Positions 8,148 to 14,507 of a stretch of 64,000 nucleotides of DNA are shown piece by piece. Each line of letters begins with the position of its first letter. Within the stretch, counting starts at the first letter, position 1. The notes below the pieces were generated by a model. The model searched no databases. It was given only the letters and a program-made list of their open reading frames with translations, and was not told the DNA's origin. This DNA comes from Limnovirga soli. Its GTDB lineage: Bacteria > Bacteroidota > Bacteroidia > Chitinophagales > Chitinophagaceae. The stretch covers positions 1 to 64,000 of the forward strand of contig NZ_WHPF01000008.1 in NCBI RefSeq assembly GCF_013106755.1, in the 5' to 3' direction. Both the position numbers and the translations under genes were made by a program.

Positions 8148-8172
8148 CTTTACTTGCGTCGCACACTTGTAC
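8148..8172 (-). repeat. Dispersed intergenic repeat, copy 6
   Basis: Reads CTTTACTT then GCGTCGCACACTTGTAC, 32 bp after the aroE stop, in the commonest orientation relative to the preceding gene. Confidence 0.88.
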
Positions 8173-8231
8173 TTTCTAACAGAAATGCAGCAAATACTAT
8201 CAAAATTTATGTATAACATCACTACGCATAA

Positions 8232-8266: not shown

Positions 8267-9607
8267 ATGCAGCAAACTACCAGCTCCGGTTCTTCCACTC
8301 CACATTTAGAAAGAACGCTTGGCCCGCTTATGTTATGGGGTTTAGGTGTAGGTTATGTAATCTCAGGTATGTATTTTGGCTGGAACCTGGGCCTAGCCGA
8401 AGGTGGTACACTAGGCCTGGCAATAGCCACGGGTTTTATCATCATCATGTACATTACCTTCACTTTTTCTTATACAGAATTGGCCTGTGCCATACCCAAA
8501 GCCGGCGGCGTGTTTGATTATGCCACCAGGGCACTGGGCAAAGAATGGGGCTTTATTGCGGGCATGGCCCAAATAATTGAATTTGTGTTTGCACCACCTG
8601 CCATTGCTGCTGCTATTGGCGCTTATTTTCATATTTTCTTTCCGGGTATATCCGTTACCACTATTGCTATTGCCGCCTATTTTGTGTTTACTGTGCTCAA
8701 TATATCCGGTTTAAAAGCCGCCGCCACTTTCGAATTAATCATCACCGTTTTTGCTGTATTTGAATTATTACTTTTTTGCGGGGTAACGCTGCCACATTTT
8801 AGCGTGGCTAACTTACAACACAATGCATTTCCAAATGGCTGGGAAGGTGTTTGGGCATCTGTACCATTTGCCATCTGGTTTTTTTTAGGCCTGGAGGGTG
8901 TTGCCAATGTGGCCGAAGAAACAGTAAATCCGCAACGCAATGTGCTAATTGGTTTTGGTTCTGCATTGCTTACCTTAATTGTATTATGTGTGCTGGTATT
9001 CATAGCTTCTGTAGGTGTTGGTGGTTGGGAAGCAGTGGTTTATCCCAGCCCTGGAGCTGCCCCTTCGGATAGTCCATTGCCCATGGCTTTGGCACAAATC
9101 ACCGGTAACAGCGGATTGTTATACCATTTGCTTATTACCATCGGACTAATGGGTTTGGTAGCATCATTTCATGGCCTAATTCTGGCCGCCAGCCGGGCTA
9201 CATACGAGTTTGGCAGAATAAAGTGTATACCTCAGGTATTTGGTAAGGTGCACCCTAAATTTAAAACACCTGCCAATGCATTAATTGTAAATATGGTGGC
9301 AGGTATAATTGCTTTGCTTTCGGGTAAAACAGCAGAAATTATTACCATCGCCTGTTTTGGTGCAATTTGCCTGTATATTATTGCTATGGTGGCCATGTTG
9401 GTCCTTAGAAAAAAAGCACCCGAAATGCCCAGACCGTTTAAAGTACCTTTTTACCCCTACTTCCCTATAATAGCTTTAGTTATTGCATCGGTAAGTTTGG
9501 TGGCAATGGTAAAATTGAATATAAATTTATCGCTCATATATTTTGCAATTCTTGCTGTTGCTTATATTTGGTTTCACTTCTTTGTAAAAAATTCACTCGA
9601 TGTCTGA
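8267..9607 (+). CDS. APC-family amino acid/amine permease, ethanolamine-permease-like
   Basis: 446 residues, about 12 hydrophobic helices, cytoplasmic membrane. The N-terminus 'LGPLMLWGLGVGYVISGMYFGWNLGL' and 'TFTFSYTELACAIPKAGGVFDYATRALG' are typical of APC transporters of the ethanolamine permease (Eat) branch, as are 'WFFLGLEGVANVAEE' and 'ILAASRATYEFGR'. Family knowledge suggests import of ethanolamine or a similar small amine. The next gene (a glutamine-synthetase-like ligase) starts 8 bp before this stop, so the two are translationally coupled and the permease substrate is probably what the ligase conjugates. Exact specificity is inferred. Confidence 0.82.
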   Translation: MQQTTSSGSSTPHLERTLGPLMLWGLGVGYVISGMYFGWNLGLAEGGTLGLAIATGFIIIMYITFTFSYTELACAIPKAGGVFDYATRALGKEWGFIAGMAQIIEFVFAPPAIAAAIGAYFHIFFPGISVTTIAIAAYFVFTVLNISGLKAAATFELIITVFAVFELLLFCGVTLPHFSVANLQHNAFPNGWEGVWASVPFAIWFFLGLEGVANVAEETVNPQRNVLIGFGSALLTLIVLCVLVFIASVGVGGWEAVVYPSPGAAPSDSPLPMALAQITGNSGLLYHLLITIGLMGLVASFHGLILAASRATYEFGRIKCIPQVFGKVHPKFKTPANALIVNMVAGIIALLSGKTAEIITIACFGAICLYIIAMVAMLVLRKKAPEMPRPFKVPFYPYFPIIALVIASVSLVAMVKLNINLSLIYFAILAVAYIWFHFFVKNSLDV

Positions 9608-10970
9608 TAAAAATTATGCCGCCGAAATAGTTCAGTTACTGGCAGATAAAGGAACTGAAAAGGTGAAATTGGCCATTACCGATATTGATGGTATTCTGCG
9701 TGGTAAAATGGTAAGCTTTGAAAAATTTGCTTCCATTGTTGAAAAGGGTTTTGGCTTTTGTAATGTGGTTTTTGGATGGGATGCTGCCGATGTAGCCTAT
9801 GATAATGTAACCATTACCGGCTGGCATTCTGGTTATCCTGATGTGAATGCCGTAATTGATTTAAATACCTTTCGCGAAATACCATGGGAGAATAATGTAC
9901 CCCTCTTTCTGGCTGATTTCAGAGATGAAAACGGTGGTGATTTACCAGTTTGTCCAAGAAGTTTATTAAAGAAAATTATTCAGCAATGTACCGATGCCGG
10001 CTATATTCCTTTTTGTTCGCAGGAGTTTGAGTGGTTTAATGTTGAAAATAATGTAGACCAATTGTATGCCGGTAATTTTCGGAATATAAAACCGATGACG
10101 CATGGTATGTTTGGCTACAGCGTGCTGCGTTCCTCACAAAAGAATGATTTTTTCCAGGATCTTTTTGACCAGCTAAAAAAATTCAAAGTACCACTCGAGG
10201 GGCTGCATACTGAAACCGGCCCCGGCGTTTACGAAGCTGCCATTACCTACTCAGGCATTTTAGAAGCTGCTGATAGAGCGGTACTCTTTAAAACAGGCAC
10301 CAAACAAATTGCCCATCAGCATGGTGTAATTGCCACTTTTATGGCAAAGTTTAACGAGAACCTGCCCGGTTGTAGCGGCCATGTACACCAAAGCCTTTGG
10401 AGTGCCGATAAAAAGCAAAACCTTTTTTACGATAAAAAATCAAAAACGGGTATCAGCCCTTTAATGCAACAATATATTGCCGGCCAGTTATATTGCCTGC
10501 CATATATTTTGCCTATGGTGGCACCCACTATAAACAGTTATAAACGATTGGTAGAAGGCGCATGGGCGCCCACTACTTTAACCTGGGCAATAGATAACAG
10601 AACCACTGCATTGCGTGTATTGCCCGGCAGCGCAACTGCCACCAGGTTAGAAACCAGGGTGGTAGGCAGCGATAGTAACCCATACCTTGCCATGGCCGCT
10701 TGCCTGGCTGCAGGTTTGTATGGTATAAAAAACAAGTTGAAATTAAAAGTGCCGGCTACTATTGGTAATGGATATGCCGATAAAGGCAATGGCATTTTAC
10801 CCCGCAATTTATGGGAAGCCACACAGGCTATGAAAGAATCGGCTGTAGCAAAGGAATTGTTTGGAGATGCCTTTGTACAACACTTTACCGCAACCAGGGA
10901 ATGGGAGTGGAGACAGTTTGCCAAAGTAGTAACCGATTGGGAACTAAAAAGGTATCTGGAAATTATTTAA
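9600..10970 (+). CDS. Glutamine-synthetase-like gamma-glutamyl-amine ligase
   Basis: 456 residues. The GS catalytic fold is evident: 'FCSQEFEWF' (metal-binding Glu pair), 'HTETGPGVYEAAI', 'GCSGHVHQSLW' (the ammonium/ATP-site region, differing from the NGSGMHxH of true GS), 'NRTTALRVL' and 'RLETRVVGSDSNPYLAMAACLA'. The N-terminal region ('AITDIDGILRGKMVSFEKF') matches PuuA/IpuC-type ligases rather than the GlnA used for ammonia assimilation. These enzymes join glutamate through its gamma-carboxyl to an amine using ATP. With the neighbouring permease, alcohol dehydrogenase, aldehyde dehydrogenase and gamma-glutamyl hydrolase, the best inference is gamma-glutamylation of ethanolamine or a similar amino alcohol. 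Confidence 0.85.
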   Translation: MSDKNYAAEIVQLLADKGTEKVKLAITDIDGILRGKMVSFEKFASIVEKGFGFCNVVFGWDAADVAYDNVTITGWHSGYPDVNAVIDLNTFREIPWENNVPLFLADFRDENGGDLPVCPRSLLKKIIQQCTDAGYIPFCSQEFEWFNVENNVDQLYAGNFRNIKPMTHGMFGYSVLRSSQKNDFFQDLFDQLKKFKVPLEGLHTETGPGVYEAAITYSGILEAADRAVLFKTGTKQIAHQHGVIATFMAKFNENLPGCSGHVHQSLWSADKKQNLFYDKKSKTGISPLMQQYIAGQLYCLPYILPMVAPTINSYKRLVEGAWAPTTLTWAIDNRTTALRVLPGSATATRLETRVVGSDSNPYLAMAACLAAGLYGIKNKLKLKVPATIGNGYADKGNGILPRNLWEATQAMKESAVAKELFGDAFVQHFTATREWEWRQFAKVVTDWELKRYLEII

Positions 10971-11002
10971 AACTATTGTCCCGGCAGTAGTATAGGTGGC
11001 TG

Positions 11003-11028
11003 GCTTTACTTGCGTCGCACACTTGTAC
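11003..11028 (-). repeat. Dispersed intergenic repeat, copy 7
   Basis: Reads GCTTTACTT then GCGTCGCACACTTGTAC, 32 bp after the ligase stop. With copy 8 it forms an inverted pair inside the catabolic operon. Confidence 0.88.
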
Positions 11029-11090
11029 TGTTGAATAGGGGGCGGCAAAAATAAATTGGAAAAAAGCTTTGCTGCACAAAGCGCCAAACG

Positions 11091-11109
11091 CACAAGAGTG
11101 CGACGCAAC
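11091..11109 (+). repeat. Dispersed intergenic repeat, copy 8
   Basis: Reads cacaagagtgcgacgcaac, opposed to copy 7 at about 60 bp. In RNA the two could form a stem of about 17 pairs just upstream of the alcohol dehydrogenase start. Confidence 0.85.
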
Positions 11110-11158
11110 GGATGCTTAATTGGAAATAAATAGTTGGGTTCAAAAAATATATAATCGT

Positions 11159-12310
11159 ATGACAGATTTTAATATCGTTAGGCAGTATAATTTCCCCACC
11201 GTTATTCGTTTTGGGGCAGGTGCAATAAAAGAATTACCACAGCACCTGGCATCTATGGGTTTTTCTAAGCCGCTATTGGTTACTGATCCTATTGTTGCCG
11301 GCCTTGATTTTTTTAAGGACATAAAAAACAGCCTTAGTGCAAAAGGTTTATCGGTAGAAGTATTTGCTGATATTCATAAAAATCCGGTAAAAAGTGATGT
11401 ATTAAAAGGAGGTGATGTTTTTGCTGAAACGCACCGGGATTGCGTTGTAGGTATTGGTGGTGGTGCTGCCCTGGATGTAGCACGTGCCATTGTGCTAAGG
11501 GTAAACCACCGCAGGGATTTATTTGATTATGATGACCTTATTGGTGGCGATCAATATGTAACAGAAGAAGTGCCTTATTTTGTAACGGTACCTACTACCA
11601 GTGGTACCGGAAGTGAAGTTGGCCGCAGCGCTATAATTTCTGAAGACGATACACATAGAAAGCGAATTTTATTCGCCCCCAAATTATTGGCTAAAATTGT
11701 ATTTGCAGATCCATTACTAACTATGGAATTACCTGCTTTTGTTACGGCGGCCACGGGCATGGATGCATTAACGCATAATATGGAAGCCTATATAGCCAAA
11801 GGGTTTCATCCAATGGCCGAGGGTATTGCATTGGAAGGTATGGCTTTGATAAACAGTGCCATTGCAGATGCAGTTAACAAACCCGATCTGGCATCTAGAA
11901 GCAAGATGATGATTGCATCGCTTATGGGAGCTGTGGCTTTTCAAAAAGGCCTTGGGGTGGTGCATTCACTGGCACATCCATTGTCTTCCTTACTGGACAC
12001 ACATCATGGTTTGGCAAATGCAGTAAATCTGCCCTACGGAATGCGTTACAATGCACCCGGTTTGGAAACACAGTTTAAACGCATGGCTATGGCCATGGAT
12101 ATTACTGATACCACGGGTGAAGGGGTAGTGCAACATTTATTTGCATTAAACCAGCAATTAGGCCTGCCCTTACATTTAAGAGATATTGGGGTTAAGGAGG
12201 AACATATAGAAACGCTGAGTGATTTGGCATTGGCAGATTTTTGCCATCCCAATAATCCCAAGCCCGTAAGCAGGGAAGATTTTAAGCAATTGTATCTGGA
12301 AGCATTATAA
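11159..12310 (+). CDS. Iron-containing alcohol dehydrogenase
   Basis: 383 residues from the ATG at 11159. A TTG at 11120 would add 13 residues and start 10 bp after repeat copy 8, so the ATG is preferred. The fold is the group III (Fe-type) ADH: 'GIGGGAALDVAR' and 'VTVPTTSGTGSEVG' bind NAD(P), and metal ligands are an Asp near 184, His206 in 'MDALTHNMEA', His273 in 'SLAHPLSS' and His283 in 'THHGLANAV'. It oxidises primary alcohols to aldehydes. Sitting after the GS-like ligase and before the hydrolase and aldehyde dehydrogenase, it takes the place held by the amine oxidase PuuB in putrescine clusters. That points to a substrate with a free hydroxyl group, such as gamma-glutamyl-ethanolamide. 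Confidence 0.87.
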   Translation: MTDFNIVRQYNFPTVIRFGAGAIKELPQHLASMGFSKPLLVTDPIVAGLDFFKDIKNSLSAKGLSVEVFADIHKNPVKSDVLKGGDVFAETHRDCVVGIGGGAALDVARAIVLRVNHRRDLFDYDDLIGGDQYVTEEVPYFVTVPTTSGTGSEVGRSAIISEDDTHRKRILFAPKLLAKIVFADPLLTMELPAFVTAATGMDALTHNMEAYIAKGFHPMAEGIALEGMALINSAIADAVNKPDLASRSKMMIASLMGAVAFQKGLGVVHSLAHPLSSLLDTHHGLANAVNLPYGMRYNAPGLETQFKRMAMAMDITDTTGEGVVQHLFALNQQLGLPLHLRDIGVKEEHIETLSDLALADFCHPNNPKPVSREDFKQLYLEAL

Positions 12311-12317
12311 GCCAATT

Positions 12318-13031
12318 ATGAAAATAGGATTAACGCATACAGGTACCGAAGAAAAGCATCAGAATTATATTCGGTGGTTGCAAAGTTCGCCAGGGGTAGA
12401 GGTAATTACTTTGTCAGCCGAAACACAGGTGGATGATGAGGTTTTTGGTTCTTTGGATGGTATTGTCATCTCGGGTGGTGTAGATGTGCACCCTTCCTTT
12501 TACAAAATGCAAACAGGCTATGCCAACCAACCCGATACATTTAATGAATCAAGAGACCGTTTTGAAACCCGGCTTTTTGAATTTAGTCAGGCAAAGCAGA
12601 TTCCTTTATTAGGTGTTTGCAGGGCATTACAATTAATCAATTGTATACTGGGTGGTACCTTAATACAGGATATAGGCGAAACCGCAAATGCAATTCACCG
12701 GTTTGATGTAAATGATAAAGCGCATGGCGTTTCAATTATCCCTAATACGCTGTTGCATACTATTGCCGGCAAAGAAAGGCTGGTAACCAATAGCGCACAT
12801 CACCAGGCAATTGGCCGTTTGGGTAGTGGACTAAAAGTTAACTGTACTTCTGATGATGGTTTAATTGAGGGAATTGAATGGGCAGACCCCTTAAACCGAG
12901 TTTTTTTTCTCGCAGTACAATGGCACCCGGAACGTTTGTTTAAATGTGGTTTGGAGGACGGGCCATTGTCAAGAAATATCAGGGAGTATTTTATAAAAGT
13001 AATTGAACAATCAAAGAAAGCAGATTTATGA
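12318..13031 (+). CDS. Gamma-glutamyl hydrolase, class I amidotransferase-like (PuuD-type)
   Basis: 237 residues of peptidase C26 type. The nucleophile is Cys101 in 'LLGVCRALQLIN' and its partners are His203 and Glu205 in 'AVQWHPERL'; 'VISGGVDVHPSFY' and 'TNSAHHQAI' are also family marks. PuuD and IpuF, the nearest functional models, cleave gamma-glutamyl-GABA and gamma-glutamyl-alanine and return glutamate. In this cluster it would release glycine (or another amino acid) and glutamate from the oxidised conjugate. It starts 7 bp after the alcohol dehydrogenase stop and overlaps the aldehyde dehydrogenase start by 4 bp (ATGA). Confidence 0.86.
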   Translation: MKIGLTHTGTEEKHQNYIRWLQSSPGVEVITLSAETQVDDEVFGSLDGIVISGGVDVHPSFYKMQTGYANQPDTFNESRDRFETRLFEFSQAKQIPLLGVCRALQLINCILGGTLIQDIGETANAIHRFDVNDKAHGVSIIPNTLLHTIAGKERLVTNSAHHQAIGRLGSGLKVNCTSDDGLIEGIEWADPLNRVFFLAVQWHPERLFKCGLEDGPLSRNIREYFIKVIEQSKKADL

Positions 13032-14392
13032 AGATAATTAACCCGGCAACTGAGGCCGTTATCACAGAATTAGCCGAAGACACCAGCACCAGCATTAATG
13101 AAAAATATCAATTATTAAAGGAGGGGCAGGCCGCCTGGGCAATGGTGCCTTTAGCTGAGCGCATAGCTTGTATTGCAACATTCTACGATTTGCTGGACAC
13201 AGAGAAAGACGAGCTGGCTAGAACTCTTACCAGCGAAATGGGTAAACCCCTGCAACAGGCCTATAACGAAATTAACGGGGCACGTGGCCGTATAAAATTT
13301 TTTATCGACCAATCAGCAAAATACCTGGCAGAAGAATGGATAATCACCGAAGGTGCTACCAAAGAAAAAATTGTTTACGAGCCATTGGGCATAATTGCCA
13401 ATATATCGGCCTGGAACTATCCTTTTTTGGTTGGGGTAAATGTATTTATTCCTGCATTAATAGGTGGCAATGCTGTTTTTTATAAACCTTCTGAATATTC
13501 TACACTTACCGGTTTACACATACAACGCTTATTATTAAAAGCGGGTATTCCCGATAATTGTTTTCAAACAGCAATAGGTAAAGGTGCTGTAGGAGAGCAA
13601 TTGCTGCAATTGCCTTTAGATGGGTATTTCTTTACAGGCAGTTATCGTACAGGTAAATATATTGCAGAAAGGGTTGCCTCAAAATTAGTGCCCTGCCAGC
13701 TGGAACTGGGTGGGAAAGATCCCCTGTATGTAATGGATGATGTGGCAGATATTGCCAATGTAGCCGCCAATGCATTAGAAGGGGTAGTGTATAATAATGG
13801 ACAAAGCTGTTGCGCGGTAGAGCGTATATATGTACATGAAAAAGTGTATGATGCATTTGTAGCCAGCTATGTAGCGCAATTACAAAAATTGGTGGTGGGC
13901 GACCCTTTGGATGCAGCTACCGATATTGGCCCTCTCAGCCGTAAAGAGCAAATGGAATTTTTGATTTCCCAGATAAATGATGCAGAAGATAAGGGCGCTA
14001 CCGTTTTAGCAGGTGGTAATATGCTCGACAGGGAAGGCTATTTTCTGGAACCAACCGTATTGGTAAACGTAAACCATCATATGAAAATAATGATGGAAGA
14101 AAGCTTTGGCCCTGTAGTTGGTATTCAAAAAGTAGCAGATGATGCAGAAGCAATTAGCCTGATGCAGGACACAGAATATGGATTAACCGCTTCTATTTAT
14201 TCCGCCACCTACGAAAGGGCAGAAGTATTAATGAAACAGCTAAATACAGGTACCGTTTATTGGAACTGTTGCGATAGGGTGAGTGCCAACCTGCCCTGGA
14301 GTGGCCGTAAAAGCTCAGGATTGGGAAGTACACTTTCCTATCAGGGCATACGTGCATTTGTACAACCCAAAGCCTATCATATACGAGGCTAA
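13028..14392 (+). CDS. NAD(P)-dependent aldehyde dehydrogenase
   Basis: 454 residues, ALDH superfamily, succinate-semialdehyde-dehydrogenase-like branch. 'NISAWNYPFLVGVNVFIPAL' and 'GGNAVFYKPSE' bind the cofactor, the general base is Glu226 in 'LELGGKDP', and the nucleophile is Cys261 in 'NNGQSCCAVER'. It is coupled to the hydrolase by an ATGA overlap and ends the operon. It is expected to oxidise the gamma-glutamyl aldehyde made by the iron dehydrogenase to the acid, which the hydrolase then splits. A role on free aldehydes cannot be excluded. Confidence 0.9.
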   Translation: MKIINPATEAVITELAEDTSTSINEKYQLLKEGQAAWAMVPLAERIACIATFYDLLDTEKDELARTLTSEMGKPLQQAYNEINGARGRIKFFIDQSAKYLAEEWIITEGATKEKIVYEPLGIIANISAWNYPFLVGVNVFIPALIGGNAVFYKPSEYSTLTGLHIQRLLLKAGIPDNCFQTAIGKGAVGEQLLQLPLDGYFFTGSYRTGKYIAERVASKLVPCQLELGGKDPLYVMDDVADIANVAANALEGVVYNNGQSCCAVERIYVHEKVYDAFVASYVAQLQKLVVGDPLDAATDIGPLSRKEQMEFLISQINDAEDKGATVLAGGNMLDREGYFLEPTVLVNVNHHMKIMMEESFGPVVGIQKVADDAEAISLMQDTEYGLTASIYSATYERAEVLMKQLNTGTVYWNCCDRVSANLPWSGRKSSGLGSTLSYQGIRAFVQPKAYHIRG

Positions 14393-14432: not shown

Positions 14433-14454
14433 TAAAGCCCTATCCCGGGCTTTA
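14433..14454. terminator. Palindromic hairpin at convergent gene ends
   Basis: TAAAGCCC / TATCCC / GGGCTTTA is a perfect 8-bp stem with a 6-nt loop between the convergent aldehyde dehydrogenase and thioesterase genes. It runs straight into repeat copy 9, showing the hairpin-plus-core form of the repeat clearly. The U-tract is weak, so efficient termination is not certain. Confidence 0.55.
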
Positions 14455-14474
14455 CTTGCGTCGCACTCTTGTAC
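14449..14474 (-). repeat. Dispersed intergenic repeat, copy 9
   Basis: Reads GCTTTACTT then GCGTCGCACTCTTGTAC, overlapping the 3' arm of the hairpin at 14433-14454. Confidence 0.9.
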
Positions 14475-14507
14475 AGCAACAATACTATGCAGCATTGGAG
14501 CTTTACA

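Follow-up and report, generated by a model that had tools for sequence, protein, structure and literature searches.

A five-gene operon of Limnovirga soli, at positions 8267-14392 of the 64,000-nt window analysed here (GCF_013106755.1, NZ_WHPF01000008.1:1-64,000), very probably serves as a unit for the catabolism of ethanolamine through gamma-glutamylation, with substrate, reaction order and products predicted from homology and gene context. Open reading frame (ORF) calls place a permease, a glutamine synthetase (GS)-like ligase, an iron-type alcohol dehydrogenase (Fe-ADH), a C26 hydrolase and an aldehyde dehydrogenase (ALDH) in one direction (Table 1). The Eat-type permease would take up ethanolamine, and the ligase, spending ATP, would couple it to the gamma-carboxyl of glutamate to give gamma-glutamyl-ethanolamide. 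Fe-ADH would oxidise the free hydroxyl of this amide to an aldehyde, ALDH would convert the gamma-glutamyl aldehyde to gamma-glutamyl-glycine, and the C26 hydrolase would split the latter into glycine and glutamate, so that glutamate is regained. Since the amine would be masked throughout, no free aminoacetaldehyde would be released, and the route would need neither B12 nor a microcompartment. A preliminary description of this DNA had proposed such a route, with substrate and reaction order likewise deduced, and this interpretation is most likely right. The pathway itself is already known; what is new is its pairing, in Bacteroidota, with a ligase from a different lineage. In the openly licensed literature no report joining ethanolamine, Bacteroidetes and gamma-glutamylation was found, though such a report may exist.

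Table 1. Features of the predicted ethanolamine operon in the window and of the related kinase-linked operon at other loci.
Feature	Position	Strand	Basis or remark
Permease, APC family, ethanolamine type (Eat)	8267..9607	+	TIGR00908; ligase-linked permease clade
GS-like ligase, predicted gamma-glutamyl-ethanolamide synthetase	9600..10970	+	PF00120; catalytic residues; trees
Fe-ADH, predicted gamma-glutamyl-ethanolamide dehydrogenase	11159 (ATG)..12310; TTG at 11120 also open	+	PF00465 and PF25137; tree
Class I glutamine amidotransferase (GATase)-like hydrolase, C26/PuuD family, predicted gamma-glutamyl-glycine hydrolase	12318..13031	+	PF07722
ALDH, predicted gamma-glutamyl-aminoacetaldehyde dehydrogenase	13028..14392	+	PF00171
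Ligase-kinase-HAD operon	L104:8522-11951, L138:8440-11689, 52 other loci		3 of 54 without HAD match

All five family annotations made at the outset hold in Pfam and NCBIfam scans, and a GS-like ligase, an alcohol dehydrogenase, an ALDH and a gamma-glutamyl-hydrolase-type gene, the gene content of a gamma-glutamylation route, are encoded together. The permease reaches 438.9 bits with the ethanolamine permease model TIGR00908 (curated cut-off 381.75) and the hydrolase 151.3 bits with PF07722 (Peptidase C26; gathering cut-off 20.5). For the ligase, Fe-ADH, C26 hydrolase and ALDH, none of the NCBIfam equivalogs listed (for ALDH, 25 of 44) attains its cut-off; the ligase scores 220.3 bits with gamma-glutamylputrescine synthetase NF045547 (GGputSyn; cut-off 650), the ALDH 234 bits with PuuC (cut-off 850) and the hydrolase 60.4 bits with PuuD (gamma-glutamyl-GABA hydrolase, NF008471; cut-off 266). 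The genes had been described as mostly overlapping or at most 8 bp apart, which fits three of the four junctions: permease and ligase overlap by 8 bp, Fe-ADH and C26 hydrolase are separated by 7 bp, and C26 hydrolase and ALDH overlap by 4 bp. The exception is the gap between ligase and Fe-ADH, 149 bp with the TTG start or 188 bp with the ATG start, which contains a genome-wide repeat. A scan for promoters and terminators returned fewer sites than shuffled sequences (11 versus 19.2 and 4 versus 7.3) and is uninformative.

EutBC is a B12-dependent lyase giving acetaldehyde and ammonia. The absence of Eut and microcompartment genes, claimed earlier for this DNA, extends to the whole 5.48-Mb assembly for EutB and for bacterial microcompartment (BMC) shell proteins, each with 0 matches and a positive E. 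coli control; no search was aimed at EutC. Permeases of the same family as that of the window adjoin EutB in sister genomes, a feature that the two systems share.

We infer that ethanolamine is the substrate, in agreement with the preliminary description, from the permease score, from the occurrence of the permease family beside the ligase or EutB in sister genomes, from the permeases of operons with a short-chain dehydrogenase (SDR) and from the probable kinship of the Fe-ADH with that of loci syntenic with the ethanolamine operon of Phaeobacter (support 93/91). In the family sample of 294 genomes, where permease places were taken at E <= 1e-90 with up to five candidates per genome scored, there are 84 ethanolamine-permease places in 83 genomes; 41 of these places have the ligase, and 37 have EutB, no more than 6 kb away. 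Dropped before the permease, ligase and EutB counts were a second EutB fragment of G247, a sub-cut-off EutB match of G060, ligase matches of E ~1e-4, the 36% ligase of G244, a 55-residue piece in G112 and secondary ligase fragments in genomes already counted. EutB occurs in 0 of 40 genomes with a permease-ligase pair versus 46 of the 254 others (Fisher p 8.5e-4, genome kinship ignored). Seven genomes have EutB plus a ligase that is not beside the permease: the ligase is of a kinase-linked type at L090, L109, L113 and L116 and stands alone at L099, and the loci of G183 and G257 were not fetched. A quick permease tree of 44 rows has 17 EutB-linked and 2 partnerless rows on one side and, on the other, 23 ligase-linked rows plus the L150 and L154 permeases (starred support of 100), whose exact place inside the ligase-linked clade has weaker support (82 and 90). 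L150 (8473-13991) and L154, both from other Bacteroidota, carry a ligase, an SDR, an ALDH, a class I GATase and an ethanolamine permease. Because their permeases group with the ligase-linked ones, one permease clade appears to serve two differently built gamma-glutamylation operons.

The arrangement recurs across genomes. Ligase matches, counted at E <= 0.001, occur in 80 of the 294 family genomes; real relatives are present in 72 of these, at 73 places, and the rest are weak or short. Apart from that of the window, 60 of these places were retrieved together with flanking sequence (L060-L119) and 12 were not. The earlier suggestion to see whether the five genes stay together in other Chitinophagaceae is answered by 32 of the 60 fetched places, which have all five; 6 are without the permease only, 3 without the C26 gene (1 of these also without the permease), 4 are partial, 1 (in the same-genus genome G070) has only the ligase, next to aroE, and at the other 14 none of the five-gene partners shares the strand of the ligase, which has a kinase-like neighbour at 13 of them. 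A phylum sample of 395 genomes gave 52 ligase matches at E <= 1e-60, 40 at 52-100% and 12 at 33-36% identity, and for the named loci (L160-L239) the 80 best of 569 listed relatives were taken, which makes them no survey. Over L060-L239 the five genes stand in the same order at 71 loci, the window's own (L158) included, although these are not independent, identical rows coming from copies of one species (e.g. L066 and L167). As the same order recurs at 71 loci, the arrangement is not due to chance. Median gaps over these loci are -4, 27, 5 and -4 bp; a simple start-codon rule probably accounts in part for the outliers, which reach 1770 and -2112. Fe-ADH D202, H206, H269 and H283, which we take to be the metal ligands, are present in 72 of 72 rows (the 71 five-gene loci and L189); C101, H203 and E205 of the C26 hydrolase, presumably its catalytic triad, and E226, C261 and C262 of ALDH, which we assume to be catalytic, are present at 71 of 71 five-gene loci.

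The ligase is set apart from plain glutamine synthetase by its predicted active site. In an 89-row alignment, the window ligase and all of 70 grouped rows keep the residues corresponding to E129, E131, E212, E220, H269, H271, R321, R339, R344, E357 and R359 of E. coli GlnA; metal, ATP and most glutamate residues are retained, while E327, Y179 and N264 are replaced by W322, F171 and P256. Of the GlnA ammonia-site residues E327, Y179 and D50, the first two are therefore absent from the window ligase, and D50 aligns with its D68 in a variable stretch. The published model of Streptomyces coelicolor GlnA4 likewise lacks E327 (F331 there) and Y179. A role as plain glutamine synthetase was rejected in view of the lost ammonia-site residues; further GS-domain matches lie on contig C77 (frames of 732 and 354 aa).

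The lineage of the ligase was examined in a careful tree of 53 selected rows, S. coelicolor GlnA4 and the Chromohalobacter salexigens ligase not being among them. Window-type ligases form one clade (91/97; starred support of 97 in a larger quick tree), which joins first the kinase-linked ligases of Bacteroidota (99/99) and next those of Proteobacteria with 44-46% identity (100/99). Ligases of loci with TRAP transporter genes (L247, L252 and L254) and of SDR-type loci form a separate clade (100/100, Embleya L287 set aside). Placing the window-type ligases in one clade with these TRAP-type and SDR-type ligases is rejected by 72.3 log units (p-AU 5.5e-5) in an approximately unbiased (AU) test whose groups were chosen after the first ligase tree had been seen and which left out L287, a locus with no cluster genes beside it. 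On these trees the ligase does not share the lineage of the TRAP-type (Phaeobacter-like) and SDR-type cluster ligases compared, and because of this difference the ligase step appears to have been recruited independently. The parallel drawn earlier to a GS-like synthetase needs correction in so far as the ligase falls outside the clade of ligases from the clusters compared. PDB chain 5dm3, presumably the C. salexigens ligase, scores higher against the L150 ligase (381 bits) than against that of the window (261 bits). On a Legionella lytica plasmid, L243:6974-11621 has a ligase (44% identity), an ALDH, an Fe-ADH and a GATase annotated as GMP synthase in one row, which brings the window-type ligase lineage together with an Fe-ADH outside Bacteroidota.

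Known systems show both the likeness of the route and the difference of its parts. Streptomyces had been named as the precedent, which holds, but the route is wider, being reported from Phaeobacter and, as cited in that work, from Chromohalobacter and Agrobacterium. The ethanolamine operon of Phaeobacter sp. MED193 comprises ETAGA, GAADDH, GETADH, GGAH and EtoVWX and is described as related to genes of C. salexigens and A. tumefaciens; five operon proteins are reported to increase on phosphorylethanolamine, and the Kd of EtoX for ethanolamine is 7.9 uM (PMC10132767). The gene order of L247 (Ruegeria), namely RpiR, N-formylglutamate amidohydrolase, three TRAP genes, ligase, ALDH and Fe-ADH, matches the order given there for MED193, a synteny by which the GETADH of Phaeobacter would be an Fe-ADH as well. 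In the Fe-ADH tree the enzymes of L247, L252, L254, L146, L147, L243 and L253 appear as the sister group of the window type (93/91, unstarred). The predicted route is the same as in Phaeobacter, whereas the window has the other ligase lineage, an Eat permease instead of TRAP genes, a C26 hydrolase instead of the N-formylglutamate amidohydrolase of L247, and no RpiR-type gene among the scanned ORFs near the operon. The S. coelicolor GlnA4 cluster (SCO1610-1615) shares ethanolamine gamma-glutamylation, an ALDH, an amidase and, in some species, a permease gene, and differs in having an SDR where the window has Fe-ADH; Streptomyces ethanolamine clusters are reported to have the same content as L150 (PMC6529630). 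By family assignment, the window hydrolase is a third family beside those of the Phaeobacter-type and SDR-type clusters.

Several observations weigh against ethanolamine catabolism as the function of the operon. The ipuC-annotated ligase is 38% identical to the window ligase, and ligases of ethanolamine-type clusters only 33-35%; ligases of 44-46% identity stand at two loci beside polyamine-type ABC transporters and an aminotransferase, and the lineage probably serves other amines elsewhere. The EutB-linked and ligase-linked permeases form two subclades, the former 41-47% identical to the window permease, so that identical specificity of the two is not proven, and 6 of the 84 permeases are near neither ligase nor EutB. 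The Fisher test takes no account of kinship among genomes. In the Fe-ADH tree, seven background rows stand apart from the sister group, with long branches nearby, and the sister side includes L253, beside a PotD-type ABC transporter, and hence not purely ethanolamine-type loci. Three five-gene-type loci (L083, L092 and L102) are without the C26 gene. In the same-genus genome G070 (L060) the ligase directly follows aroE without a permease beside it, and an Fe-ADH of 79% identity is on another contig (G070:C6:28995-30143); the 5 of 17 candidates scored in that genome include no ethanolamine permease at E <= 1e-90.

Another primary amino alcohol (3-aminopropanol, alaninol or similar) could be the main substrate under the same chemistry, with ethanolamine a minor one. 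Fe-ADH and ALDH require merely a primary alcohol, relatives of the ligase lineage occur in other contexts, and the 38% identical ipuC-annotated ligase of Paenarthrobacter aurescens TC1 comes from a cluster with a C26-type gene near ipuC. This alternative is nonetheless improbable, as the permease scores above the ethanolamine-permease cut-off and belongs to a family that stands beside EutB in sister genomes, and no P450 or ferredoxin of the Ipu set was found among the scanned proteins around the operon, unlike in two Ipu-type plasmid clusters. For the same lack the isopropylamine route was rejected.

The nearest Bacteroidota relatives of the window ligase sit in a ligase-kinase-phosphatase operon that occurs widely in Bacteroidota: a kinase-like gene stands beside the ligase at 54 of 180 loci (L060-L239), at 51 of the 54 together with a HAD gene. 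The kinase falls in no Pfam family at the usual threshold, and relaxing the limit to E <= 1 gives APH matches for 4 of 34 members (best 0.0081); its structural model (pLDDT 88.9) matches kinases of the APH fold, including those for amicoumacin, N-acetylhexosamine, homoserine and ethanolamine. The HAD protein is of the HAD-IIA type, nearest to 2hx1. No alignment column separates window-type from kinase-linked ligases at strict thresholds, and the four that differ at relaxed thresholds are all I/V/L-type preferences; because of this, the sequence gives no substrate switch between the two contexts. A single clade of kinase-linked ligases is not rejected (p-AU 0.36), so the change between contexts could have run in either direction. 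It is conceivable, if rather doubtful, that this ligase family feeds two pathways from one product, the window operon oxidising gamma-glutamyl-ethanolamide and the kinase/HAD-IIA operon adding a phosphate to the hydroxyl of some gamma-glutamyl amino alcohol, and that the window operon recruited its ligase from the latter.

These kinase-linked ligases, accompanied by kinase and phosphatase and not by dehydrogenases, and the isolated ligase at the corresponding place in G070 would also suit a gamma-glutamyl amide made for detoxification or nitrogen storage, its neighbours being loosely linked; the 71 loci with all five genes, the window included, and the Fe-ADH retained elsewhere in G070 make this very improbable. 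A Puu-type polyamine or diamine route was rejected as scarcely credible: gamma-glutamylation, aldehyde oxidation and C26-type hydrolysis are shared with E. coli PuuA, PuuC and PuuD, and the two ligase relatives beside polyamine-type ABC transporters lean that way, but where Puu has the amine oxidase PuuB the operon has, as first described, an alcohol dehydrogenase, and it contains no amine oxidase or transaminase, the GGputSyn and PuuC scores lie far under their cut-offs, and E. coli PuuA falls outside the window ligase group (on a very long branch of unsure place).

Around the predicted ethanolamine operon, other features of the window were recorded. The repeat in the gap between ligase and Fe-ADH is a 24-base element with 992 copies (<=3 mismatches) in the 5.48-Mb genome, versus 0 for a reversed-pattern control. 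Twelve copies lie in the window (chance 0), including 8150-8173, 11006-11029, 14452-14475 and 9 more, and the 41 ORFs checked, together 85% of the window, contain none. The copy in the gap forms a predicted hairpin with an inverted copy, and the sole PF01797 (Y1_Tnp) match of the genome sits between inverted copies, so that repeat and gene look like a REP/RAYT system at high density. A phosphosulfolactate-synthase-like gene (PF02679; 6550-7368; 258 bits versus a ComA equivalog cut-off of 280) lies upstream of aroE, and in G070 such a gene likewise precedes aroE and the ligase.

A very common lipid of bacterial membranes carries ethanolamine as its headgroup. In the sampled family, B12-dependent EutBC and, presumably, B12-free gamma-glutamylation both adjoin one permease family. 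Over the compared loci the pathway looks modular, with 2 ligase lineages, 2 dehydrogenase families, 3 hydrolase families and 2 transporter types, which calls for caution in predicting the route from any single marker gene. The choice between the two ethanolamine routes, or the replacement of one by the other, becomes testable in culturable relatives, e.g. Pedobacter and Chitinophaga.

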